A stretch of 64,000 nucleotides of DNA from Curtobacterium sp. MCJR17_055 (GTDB lineage: Bacteria; Actinomycetota; Actinomycetes; Actinomycetales; Microbacteriaceae). Numbering within the stretch: position 1 is the stretch's first letter; each line of letters opens with the position of its first letter. The stretch lies in contig NZ_QKLF01000004.1 of NCBI RefSeq assembly GCF_003224335.1, positions 248,001 through 312,000 on the forward strand. Direction: 5' to 3'. A model generated the notes under the pieces. That model had not been told where the DNA came from, did not search any database, and saw only the letters and a list, made by a program, of their open reading frames with translations. Position numbers and translations under genes: made by a program. Shown piece by piece: positions 9,465-18,709 of the stretch.

Positions 9465-9470
9465 GTTCAG

Positions 9471-9559
9471 CGGCTCCTCACGTGACGCCATCCAGGCCAA
9501 CTCCCCCAGGGCGGAAACGCAGCAAGGGTAACCGGGCTCTGGCGGGTGCGTGAGGAGTC
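9471..9559 (+). ncRNA. ffs: Signal recognition particle RNA, small bacterial type (4.5S)
   Basis: RNA scaffold of the signal recognition particle, which with Ffh targets nascent membrane proteins to FtsY. The conserved domain IV apex is clear: CAGGGCGGAAACGCAGCAAG followed by GGTAACCGGGCTCTGG, matching the G-GAA tetraloop and asymmetric-loop layout of actinobacterial SRP RNA. The ends pair as a terminal helix (CTCCTCACG 9474-9482 with CGTGAGGAG 9549-9557). About 89 bases long. It precedes dnaX-recR, as in many Gram-positive bacteria. The 3' strand of the helix is the first part of a 66-bp tandem repeat. Confidence 0.93.
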
Positions 9560-9697
9560 TTCTTCATTTCCTGGGGCGGCGTTGCGGGGGAACCGGGGCT
9601 GTGCCGGTTCCGTGCGTGAGGGGTCTTCTTCATTTCCTGGGGCGGCGTTGCGGGGGAACCGGGGCTGTGCCGGTTCCGTGCGTGAGGAGTCTTCTTC
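9546..9697 (+). repeat. 66-bp tandem repeat that duplicates the SRP RNA 3' end
   Basis: Copy 1 is 9546-9611, copy 2 is 9612-9677 with a single difference (A to G at 9622), and copy 3 keeps only its first 20 bases (9678-9697). Each unit starts with the 3' strand of the SRP RNA (GTGCGTGAGGAGTC), then a pyrimidine-rich TCTTCTTCATTT, then a GGAACCGG/CCGGTTCC hairpin (9589-9611 and 9655-9677). The units may act as serial terminators for the SRP RNA. Confidence 0.9.
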
Positions 9698-15933: not shown

Positions 15934-17421
15934 GTGGCAGTGAAGCAGGTGGACCCCATCGATGTCGTCCTCGTCGGCGGAGGGATCATGAGCGCCACGC
16001 TCGCCGCGATCATCCACCGGCTCGAGCCGGACTGGACGATCCGCGTGTACGAGCGGCTGGGCAGCGCGGCGCAGGAGTCCTCCAACCCGTGGAACAACGC
16101 CGGGACGGGCCACTCGGCGCTCTGCGAGCTCAACTACACGCCCGAGCTCCCCGACGGCCGCGTGGACATCGCGAAGGCCGTGACGGTCAACGAGCAGTTC
16201 CAGGTGTCCCGGCAGTTCTGGTCGCACCTGGTCGAGGACGGGACGTTGCCCGACCCGACGAGCTTCATCAACCCGACGCCGCACATCTCCTTCGTGTGGG
16301 GCGCGGACAACGTCGCGTACATGCGCGCGCGCTACGACGCCATGAAGGACCACCCGCTCTTCGCCGGGCTCGAGTACAGCGAGGACGCCGAGCAGATCCG
16401 GAAGTGGGCACCGGCCCTCATCCCGGGGCGCAAGAAGGACCAGCCGATCGCGGCGACGTACTCGGCGGCGGGCTCCGACGTCGACTTCGGGTCCCTCACC
16501 CGGCAGCTCTTCGACCAGCTCGAGATCGACGGCCTGCAGTTCGAACCGTCGCACCGCGTGACGAAGATCGCCCGCTCGAAGGTCTCCGACGGCTGGGTGC
16601 TCGACGTCCGCAACGAGGTCGGTCGCTCGAAGCAGCGCATCGCGGCGAAGTTCGTGTTCGTCGGTGCCGGCGGCGGGGCGCTGCAGCTGCTGCAGAAGTC
16701 CGGCATCCCGGAGATCCGCGGCTACGGCGGCTTCCCGGTGTCCGGCGAGTTCCTGCGCACCGACGACCCGGAGGTGGTGCAGAAGCACGCGGCGAAGGTC
16801 TACGGCAAGGCGAGCGTGGGGGCTCCGCCGATGTCGGTGCCGCACCTGGACACCCGCATCGTCGACGGGCAGGCGTCGCTCATGTTCGGACCGTACGCGG
16901 GGTTCAGCCCGAAGTTCCTCAAGCAGGGGTCGGTGCTCGACCTGTTCACGTCGATCCGCCCGCACAACCTCCGTCCGATGCTCGCGGTCGCGTTCTCCAA
17001 CTTCGACCTGGTGAAGTACCTGGTCGGGCAGCTCCTGGCCTCGAAGCGCACGAAGTTCGACGCGCTCCGCGAGTTCATGCCGAGCGCGCGGCCGGAGCAC
17101 TGGCACCGCATCACCGCGGGGCAGCGGGTGCAGGTCATCAAGCCGGACCCCGAGAAGGGCGGTGTCCTGCAGTTCGGCACGCAGGTCATCACGTCCGGGG
17201 ACGGGTCGATCGCCGGCCTGCTCGGTGCCTCCCCGGGAGCGTCCACCGCGGTCCCGATCATGCTCGGGCTGCTGCAGCGGTGCTTCCCGGACCGGTGGGA
17301 CGGCTGGCAGGCGTCGGTGCGTGAGATGGTGCCGACGTACGGTCAGGACCTCGGCGACGACGCGGCCCTGGCGAGCGCCACGCTGGACCGTACGGCGGCG
17401 GTGCTGGGCCTGCACCGCTGA
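15934..17421 (+). CDS. mqo: Malate:quinone oxidoreductase
   Basis: Peripheral membrane FAD enzyme that oxidises malate to oxaloacetate and passes electrons to menaquinone, replacing or complementing NAD-dependent malate dehydrogenase in the citric acid cycle. The 495 residues begin with the FAD loop VVLVGGGIMSATLA, followed by the family signature ESSNPWNNAGTGHSALCELN and the FINPTPHISFVWG segment; the C-terminus has GLLGASPGASTAVPIML. Length is normal. GTG 15934 appears to be leaderless. It is monocistronic; the SOS-controlled radical SAM gene starts 46 bases after it. Confidence 0.97.
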   Translation: MAVKQVDPIDVVLVGGGIMSATLAAIIHRLEPDWTIRVYERLGSAAQESSNPWNNAGTGHSALCELNYTPELPDGRVDIAKAVTVNEQFQVSRQFWSHLVEDGTLPDPTSFINPTPHISFVWGADNVAYMRARYDAMKDHPLFAGLEYSEDAEQIRKWAPALIPGRKKDQPIAATYSAAGSDVDFGSLTRQLFDQLEIDGLQFEPSHRVTKIARSKVSDGWVLDVRNEVGRSKQRIAAKFVFVGAGGGALQLLQKSGIPEIRGYGGFPVSGEFLRTDDPEVVQKHAAKVYGKASVGAPPMSVPHLDTRIVDGQASLMFGPYAGFSPKFLKQGSVLDLFTSIRPHNLRPMLAVAFSNFDLVKYLVGQLLASKRTKFDALREFMPSARPEHWHRITAGQRVQVIKPDPEKGGVLQFGTQVITSGDGSIAGLLGASPGASTAVPIMLGLLQRCFPDRWDGWQASVREMVPTYGQDLGDDAALASATLDRTAAVLGLHR

Positions 17422-17432
17422 CGTCCCCCTCC

Positions 17433-17467
17433 TTGCACCTCGTTCGAACATGTGTTCGAATGGGAGC
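17433..17467 (+). promoter_or_regulatory. LexA SOS box inside a leaderless promoter
   Basis: TTCGAACATGTGTTCGAA (17443-17460) has 8-bp perfect arms and matches the Gram-positive/actinobacterial LexA box CGAAC-N4-GTTCG. It lies between a -35-like TTGCAC (17433-17438) and a -10-like TCGAAT (17456-17461, 17-base spacer), and the -10 ends six bases before the ATG, so LexA would cover the promoter and the message would be leaderless. Confidence 0.85.
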
Positions 17468-18709
17468 ATGCGTTGGGACGGGCAGGCGATCACGGCCGAG
17501 CGGAGCGACATGCTCCCCGGACTCGAGTCGAACAGCGGGTTCGTCCGGAGCGTGACGACCCCTGAGTTCGTCGGGGTGACCTTCCACGAGGTCCTGGCGA
17601 AGTCCGCGCTGAACAAGGTCGGGGGAGCGGACGGCGGCACGTGGGGGTGGACGATCAACCCCTACCGCGGCTGCAGTCATGCCTGCGTGTACTGCTTCGC
17701 CCGTCCGACCCACACCTACCTGGAGTTCGACGGCGGGGCGGACTTCGACCAGCAGATCGTCGTGAAGACGAACGTCGCCGACGTGCTCACTCGGGAACTC
17801 GCGAAGCCGAGCTGGGACCGGCACCCGGTCGCCCTCGGCACGAACACCGACCCGTACCAGCGCGCAGAGGGACGGTACCGGCTCATGCCCGGGATCATCC
17901 GCGCCCTGGCCGACTCCGGCACGCCCTTCAGCATCCTCACCAAGGGCAGTCTGCTCCGACGGGACATCCCGCTCCTGGTCGAAGCCGCGAAGTCCGTCCC
18001 GGTCGACATCGCGATGTCCATCGCGGTGTACGACGACGACCTGCAGCAGTCCGTCGAGCCCGGCACCCCGACGACCTCTGCACGCCTGGCCACGGTACGG
18101 GCGGTCCGCGACGCCGGGCTCGACTGCTCGGTGTTCCTCATGCCGGTCCTGCCGTACATCACGGACACGCGGGCGCACCTGCAGGACGCGGTCGGGCGCG
18201 CGGCTGCCTCCGGTGCGACGAGCCTGATGTACTCGGCGCTGCACCTCAAGCCCGGCATCAAGCCGTGGTGGTACGAGTGGCTGGGCCGGACGCACCCCGA
18301 CCTCGTGGGGCGCTACCGGGCCATGTACCTCGACAACACGTACGCGCCGAAGGACTACCGGCGCTGGTTGGCCGAGCGGGTCCGGCCGATCCTGCACGAG
18401 CACGGCCTGTCCCTGGGGAAGGTCGACCCGGCGACCGGATCGATGGGGTTCTCGGACGACGCCGTGCCCCGGACGTCGGACCAGTCGCCGCTCAAGCGCG
18501 CGGACCCCGGGTACGCCCACCGCGCCGAGTACCGGCCGTCGAACGGGCTCGGCCCGGGCGCCGGGGCCCCCGGTGTGGCCGCTTCTGCCCCGGCCTCGGC
18601 GGGGGCGGGTCGGCCGACGGGCCCGACCCGGCTGACGGAGGCGACCCGTCCGACGGGTGCGGTCCGCGAGACGGGTGCGGTCCGCACGGCGGAACCGCGT
18701 CTCTTCTGA
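17468..18709 (+). CDS. Rv2578c-family radical SAM protein (SplB-like), SOS-regulated
   Basis: Predicted iron-sulfur enzyme of 413 residues that cleaves S-adenosylmethionine; reaction unknown. The cluster motif C69-x3-C73-x2-C76 sits in YRGCSHACVYCFARPTH, the form typical of spore-photoproduct-lyase-like (SplB) proteins, followed by the conserved LGTNTDPYQRAE and FSILTKGSLLRRD segments. The last 90 residues are a low-complexity Gly/Ala/Pro/Thr tail with tandem (L/V)TEATRPTGAVRETGAV-like units. The LexA box directly upstream, together with the homology to DNA lesion lyases, suggests a role in DNA damage response. ATG 17468 has no ribosome-binding site at usable spacing. Confidence 0.9.
   Translation: MRWDGQAITAERSDMLPGLESNSGFVRSVTTPEFVGVTFHEVLAKSALNKVGGADGGTWGWTINPYRGCSHACVYCFARPTHTYLEFDGGADFDQQIVVKTNVADVLTRELAKPSWDRHPVALGTNTDPYQRAEGRYRLMPGIIRALADSGTPFSILTKGSLLRRDIPLLVEAAKSVPVDIAMSIAVYDDDLQQSVEPGTPTTSARLATVRAVRDAGLDCSVFLMPVLPYITDTRAHLQDAVGRAAASGATSLMYSALHLKPGIKPWWYEWLGRTHPDLVGRYRAMYLDNTYAPKDYRRWLAERVRPILHEHGLSLGKVDPATGSMGFSDDAVPRTSDQSPLKRADPGYAHRAEYRPSNGLGPGAGAPGVAASAPASAGAGRPTGPTRLTEATRPTGAVRETGAVRTAEPRLF

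Follow-up and report, generated by a model that had tools for sequence, protein, structure and literature searches.

The locus and its gene

The window, i.e. the whole stretch of DNA analysed (64,000 nucleotides of Curtobacterium sp. MCJR17_055, in an assembly of 3.29 Mb), contains a radical SAM gene with a predicted LexA operator directly ahead of its start codon. The following features were recorded.

15934-17421: open reading frame 5' of the radical SAM gene, ending 46 bp ahead of its start
17433..17438, + strand: putative -35 element TTGCAC, with TTG at a like spacing in relatives
17443..17460, no strand: predicted LexA operator TTCGAACATGTGTTCGAA, perfect at all 14 specified positions
17456..17461, + strand: putative -10 element TCGAAT in the right half of the operator, with TGT just ahead as in an extended -10
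17462..17467, + strand: six-base gap from -10 to ATG, without space for a Shine-Dalgarno sequence at usable distance
17468..18709, + strand: radical SAM gene, Rv2578c family, 413 aa (open reading frame list, NF038135, PF04055)
17672..17695, + strand: codons of the [4Fe-4S]-AdoMet motif CSHACVYC (C69, C73, C76), from an alignment of 23 sequences
17837..17857, + strand: codons of GTNTDPY, at the place of C140-T-S-D-I of spore photoproduct lyase (SPL), without cysteine

The protein matches the equivalog model NF038135 ("Rv2578c family radical SAM protein") with E 2.9e-147 and 489.8 bits (cut-off 430), its residues 1-314 aligning with positions 1-316 of the 317 of the profile, and it reaches 54.6 bits for the radical SAM domain PF04055 (cut-off 29.5), which places it in that domain family. 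The start codon at 17468 agrees with that of the family, as residue 1 falls on position 1 of the NF038135 profile and the protein begins with MRW like its relatives. Compared with the NF038135 family, which carries no name beyond that of Rv2578c, the protein lies over the curated cut-off at full length with the same N-terminal start and cluster motif, and differs in nothing of weight except its C-terminal tail (residues 327-413), which is longer and modelled with low confidence. The second-best NCBIfam family, setting aside the intein form, is the PA0069 family (NF033668), whose cut-off of 360 is not reached (217.6 bits). The nearest named relatives are chiefly from Curtobacterium. The preceding reading frame (15934-17421), recognised by eye, we take to be malate:quinone oxidoreductase. 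The window also contains a bacterial small SRP RNA (9469-9565) and tRNA-Ser, tRNA-Pro and tRNA-Thr.

Promoter and predicted operator

The putative promoter consists of TTGCAC, 17 nt, TCGAAT and six nt up to the ATG (17468-17470), and the palindrome overlaps the end of the spacer and most of the -10. These positions bear out the first-pass annotation, which had described an exact 18-base LexA box (a perfect palindrome at 17443-17460), its extension over the spacer and the -10 (17456-17461), and a -10 that ends six bases ahead of the ATG (17461 and 17468, respectively).

With up to two mismatches the 18-mer has a single match in the window, and 100 dinucleotide shuffles gave a mean of 0.05, four of them containing at least one. 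The 16-base core TCGAACN4GTTCGA occurs in exactly five copies in the 3.29 Mb genome. Loose boxes are abundant in this TCGA-rich genome, with 67 in the window at up to three mismatches (17 expected) and 585 genome-wide at up to two; a loose box alone therefore says little, and only exact or conserved boxes count. Both hexamers are weak, the -10 having no A at position 2 and TTGCAC agreeing with TTGACA at 3/6 positions, and a generic sigma-70 promoter scan did not list the promoter at 17433-17461. The assignment of this putative promoter depends on comparison with relatives, not on the single sequence.

Other LexA boxes of the genome

The five exact core boxes are located before the radical SAM gene (one), before the gene for ImuA' (two, 53 bp apart) and before short open reading frames (two). 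The ImuA' gene (G000:C1:117415-117870) matches NF058630 with E 3.8e-52. Boxes with one mismatch precede lexA and a gene that we take, from its sequence, to be recA. LexA is encoded at G000:C1:51013-51627 with both LexA domains by Pfam, and lexA was found over the cut-off in 78 of 80 Microbacteriaceae genomes.

One of the boxes before short frames (G000:C1:187610 onward, L289:3611-4004) has TTGACG as its -35 and is followed at 7 nt by a GTG that opens a frame of 123 aa. This frame has no NCBIfam match, its 89-aa end has no Pfam match, and its matches in 17/80 Microbacteriaceae genomes are mainly remote. The other (G000:C5:244819, L290:3319-3614) lies 14 nt 5' of a short frame beginning MMIVDTAAT, which has a GAGGAGG ribosome site and no Pfam or NCBIfam match. 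Upstream of lexA (L291:2297-2324), an ATG is found 7 nt behind the one-mismatch box and in frame with LexA (frame of 270 aa), so that this genome may encode a leaderless LexA with an extended N-terminus.

Conservation of the distance between box and start

The geometry of a locus was called near when an 18-mer agreeing at 9 or more of the 14 specified positions ended 6-8 nt before the start. Altogether 236 loci were taken up, of which L150 (N-terminus absent) and L178 (contig edge) were left unscored; the 234 scored loci comprise 232 distinct ones, four of them being two identical pairs common to the named and the Microbacteriaceae set. The counts cover homologues with the N-terminal MRW start, with locus L080 left out, and as the scored sequences share descent they express preserved structure, not independent gains.

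Near geometry is present at 199 of the 234 scored loci (71+56+9+63). Among the named loci, 72 were found and all 71 scored are near (L150 left out). The Microbacteriaceae sample comprises 80 genomes from 77 genera, 59 of which possess the radical SAM gene. The first-pass annotation had suggested a search for the box upstream of homologues; run on Microbacteriaceae, it placed the box 6-8 nt before the start in 56/58 scored homologues, nearly all from separate genera (L178 left out), at distances of 7 nt (47 loci), 8 nt (8 loci) and 6 nt (one locus). Shuffled upstream regions are near in 0.46% of tries, which is the expectation per Microbacteriaceae locus. The exceptions are L219, without a box, and L212, whose perfect box lies 39 nt ahead of the start. 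In L212 a GTG lies 7 nt behind the perfect box, out of frame with the gene, and this locus may have changed from leaderless to leadered.

Ten further loci of the same family include nine with near geometry, and the remaining one (L260) has a score of 8 with the site 7 nt away. The remaining actinobacterial loci are near in 17/18 (family f6), 20/20 (f88), 0/22 (f5) and 26/35 cases (all others). The box of locus L165 lies 4 nt from the start. Among the 35 loci that are not near, 22 belong to family f5 (Streptomyces-like), where 18/22 possess a site of at least 9/14 at 28-33 nt upstream, with scores of 9-12 of 14 only. As shuffles of f5 reach a score of 9 anywhere within 150 nt in 15%, the recurring position carries the weight in this family.

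A probably leaderless message

With the -10 ending six bases upstream of the start codon, transcription is expected to begin on the A of the ATG or on a base adjoining it. A Shine-Dalgarno sequence, defined as one of GGAGG, GAGGA, AGGAG and AAGGAG within the 14-base stretch that a ribosome site would occupy, occurs in 0/199 near loci versus 24/35 others (21/22 in family f5). Shuffles of the near loci yield one in 2%, so that the contrast outweighs the zero itself. A TTG is located 17 nt (137 loci) or 18 nt (16 loci) ahead of the -10 in 153/184 near loci, with spacings of 15-19 allowed and shuffles giving 3.2% for three spacings, and 183/184 have T as the last base of the -10. A leaderless mRNA of the radical SAM gene is likely on this comparative evidence, and the message without 5' UTR predicted in the first-pass annotation gains strong support from conservation.

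A similar arrangement is found at imuA', which is present over the cut-off in 59/80 Microbacteriaceae genomes. Like the radical SAM gene, it possesses a LexA-like box (at least 11/14) upstream in 29/30 fetched loci, directly before an in-frame start that follows 9 nt behind the box in 27 of the 29. Clear imuA' promoters, read by eye, have the form TTGACA-17-GAATAT-6-start. The box thus ends 9 nt before the start at imuA' versus 7 nt at the radical SAM gene, and the -10 lies two to three bases further along; operator phase differs, and the distance from promoter to start is the same, as read by eye.

The protein and spore photoproduct lyase

An AlphaFold2 model built from 23 sequences has a moderate mean pLDDT of 67.8; most of the barrel is modelled well, the tail and the cluster loop (residues 68-87 below 50) poorly. 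With this model, both Foldseek and VIA-align rank SPL entries first, six of them at Z 14.7-15.2 (best rmsd 3.7, 253 aligned residues, about 12% identity). Lipoyl synthase is the next fold (Z 13.7, 1.5 Z under the best), and NifB and viperin also follow after SPL. A PDB sequence search with the single protein gave no match, and a PDB profile search found SPL weakly (E 0.012). The modelled similarity to SPL is one of shared fold and not proof of kind.

The hydrogen donor of SPL is C140, located here from the C140S and C140A chains in the context FEA-A-C-T-S-D-I. The matching stretch reads VALGTNTDPY, and the cysteine is absent in 23/23 sequences, whether the place is taken without gaps (T125; 22 T, 1 S) or by hhalign (L123, invariant). 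Only C69, C73 and C76 are invariant cysteines among the 23 sequences, C220 being present in 17/23. The cysteine-free motif also occurs in five alphaproteobacterial relatives. Y75 is located at SPL Y96 and is invariant; at SPL Y98, F is found in 20/23 and Y in 3/23. The SplB-like fold noticed in the first-pass annotation thus holds to the extent that SPL structures are the closest; the analogy ends before the chemistry, which is not transferable as it stands because the hydrogen-donor cysteine is missing.

Inserts, viral relatives and co-occurrence

Several homologues contain intein-like in-frame inserts exactly between Y75 and C76.

Insert of 328-348 aa: L144, L146-L149, L151, L075, L076, L079, L198, L199, L169
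Insert of 152 aa: L156, L163

As the insert precedes the third cluster cysteine, the cluster site would form only after splicing; NCBIfam has the intein form as NF038136. In the record of L145 (C. flaccumfaciens Sample7_18) the frame of the gene is lost just past residue 88, by a frameshift or an assembly error. A search for phage cargo with the protein against viral contigs found no relative, and the alignment as query found two distant ones (33% and 39%). Among the 80 Microbacteriaceae genomes, 51 possess both the radical SAM gene and ImuA', 8 only the former, 8 only the latter and 13 neither, with ImuA' counted over its cut-off and the tally made by hand; as 10 of the 13 genomes with neither measure at most 2.2 Mb, no co-inheritance is deduced from these numbers.

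Proposed mechanism and alternative readings

Regulon membership was judged by a conserved operator on the promoter and a LexA in the same genome, and both are found here. LexA control of the radical SAM gene is very likely, given the sequence comparisons, and the predicted LexA operator over the -10, as claimed in the first-pass annotation, is strongly supported by its recurrence in the 56/58 Microbacteriaceae and 199/234 loci overall. The annotation had also named Rv2578c as a LexA target, which we take to be plausible.

As long as the DNA is undamaged, a LexA dimer bound at 17443-17460 would cover the -10 and exclude RNA polymerase. Upon DNA damage, RecA filaments would lead to self-cleavage of LexA, polymerase would then bind TTGCAC/TCGAAT, and transcription would begin on the A of the start codon at 17468 or on a base adjoining it, giving a leaderless message on which translation begins directly at the 5' end. 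Most likely the product would be an AdoMet-radical enzyme with damaged DNA as substrate, possibly a UV or cross-link lesion, related to SPL in fold and devoid of its cysteine hydrogen donor. As a whole, this proposal of a LexA-repressed, damage-induced leaderless gene for a DNA-lesion radical SAM enzyme that does without the cysteine donor of SPL appears to us fairly probable.

An SOS-induced enzyme with a substrate other than DNA (a modified nucleotide, tRNA or protein), serving recovery rather than repair, would be in line with the many substrates of radical SAM folds and with lipoyl synthase, NifB and viperin following SPL in the ranking; DNA as the substrate is what we infer. However, the recognisable genes behind the other boxes of the genome are those of SOS and DNA repair (ImuA', RecA, LexA) and SPL is the best fold match, and we consider a non-DNA substrate unlikely, if quite conceivable.

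Control by LexA with a leadered message, starting upstream of the box or arising by read-through and translated from the weak ribosome site GGGAGC, would be suggested by the short distance of just 46 bp to the preceding reading frame, by the lack of a terminator-like site in the scan, by the leadered appearance of the f5 homologues and by GGGAG adjoining the ATG. A ribosome site one base from the start codon is too close, however, and GGGAG is not kept in the relatives compared. The complete lack of Shine-Dalgarno sequences at near loci and the distance of about six bases from -10 to start, which is constant across genera and recurs at imuA' by eye reading, make a leader improbable, and the leaderless message is preferred.

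A true SPL, with the lesion and the cysteine-relay chemistry of SplB, would explain the top rank of SPL entries, Y75 at the place of Y96 and the C-x3-C-x2-C motif common to both, but it is very improbable in view of the lack of a cysteine at or near C140 (T or S at T125), the limitation of invariant cysteines to the three cluster ligands, the predominant F at the Y98 place and the low identity over the fold. That the palindrome belongs to another regulator, or comes about by chance in TCGA-rich sequence where loose matches are frequent, is hardly credible against an exact match, a box at a like place in nearly all Microbacteriaceae homologues and the occurrence of this motif ahead of ImuA', lexA and recA too. 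A chance box in particular was rejected on exactness (five genome copies), shuffles and conservation.

The gene thus probably encodes an SOS-induced DNA-lesion radical SAM enzyme with a chemistry other than that of SPL, as judged from the sequences. The first-pass description of a conserved but uncharacterised DNA damage enzyme fits in that NF038135 is named only for Rv2578c and SPL structures are the closest; its DNA substrate is the deduced part. A gene of uncharacterised biochemistry is LexA-boxed very consistently in the Actinobacteria examined, and sharp predictions follow: the RNA should begin with the A of the ATG, and a lesion should be repaired without the cysteine of SPL. If true, cells would possess a dedicated radical SAM response to some DNA lesion outside sporulation, and the fixed promoter geometry would allow leaderless SOS genes to be called by sequence alone.

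A wider reading is offered tentatively, as possible and on balance doubtful. The Rv2578c and PA0069 families would make up a second class of radical SAM enzymes, distinct from SPL, which reverse a DNA lesion directly in growing cells, without the SPL cysteine donor and under LexA control across phyla with differing LexA motifs; in many Actinobacteria the gene would be part of a leaderless SOS promoter set together with imuA', with the -10-to-start distance fixed and the operator phase varying.

Comparison with known systems

Relatives are found in 69 plasmid records, seven of which were fetched (five alphaproteobacterial, two actinobacterial); the two actinobacterial ones have near geometry, read by eye. 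GTTCN7GTTC, presumably the LexA motif of this alphaproteobacterial group, is located upstream of the gene in 5/5 alphaproteobacterial relatives examined and occurs six times in total in the five loci (22,684 bases, both strands). Two of the five carry the PA0069 family annotation. The PA0069 family (NF033668) resembles the present gene in its cysteine-free motif, G[TA]NTDPYQ. According to published work, splB is an SOS gene in alpha- and beta-Proteobacteria (PMC3323433) and in Bacteroidetes (PMC8565304), and SplB-like genes are tied to SOS modules by gene neighbourhood (PMC3765255). The alphaproteobacterial boxes agree with this published SOS control of splB-like genes (PMC3323433, PMC8565304, PMC3765255, PMC9380542). 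PA0069 and the proteobacterial "splB", so labelled by the paper itself (PMC3323433), differ from the present gene in box (GTTCN7GTTC) and phylum.

In Streptomyces venezuelae, the radical SAM gene vnz_31145 is 19.97-fold up with mitomycin C and LexA-bound, according to PMC9380542. Its box TCGACCGTTCGCTC at -61 was sought in 343 genomes of one genus (19 genomes matched), and 0/20 loci had an MRW start 20-75 nt behind it; vnz_31145 is therefore compared here as a radical SAM gene, which may or may not be of the Rv2578c family and share its operator.

SPL itself (SplB, PDB 4fhc and mutants) shares the best fold, the C-x3-C-x2-C cluster and the tyrosine at Y96. Unlike SplB, the present protein has no C140, has relatives with mostly F for Y98, is only about 12% identical and lies behind a LexA-type operator. 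A Streptomyces member is 17.6% identical to SplB with an RMSD above 4 A, and the 2026 paper in question urges caution with the label (PMC12924846). The same paper places the attB site of the phage Samy integrase inside a gene of the Rv2578c family in Streptomyces (PMC12924846).

The lexA gene of M. tuberculosis is leaderless by experiment, translation beginning at the transcription start (PMC2897130). It is also an SOS gene, but another gene and one with experiment behind it, whereas the geometry described here comes from sequence. The literature on leaderless SOS promoters, with subscription papers partly covered, yielded this M. tuberculosis lexA and nothing on the radical SAM gene. SplB-like SOS genes in Proteobacteria, Bacteroidetes and Streptomyces and the leaderless M. 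tuberculosis lexA were known in outline (PMC3323433, PMC8565304, PMC9380542, PMC2897130). The present finding is solid and, for the most part, a clear case of something already known. Two points are new as far as the literature searched goes (subscription papers in part): that the leaderless geometry hardly varies across many genera, and that the SPL cysteine is missing.
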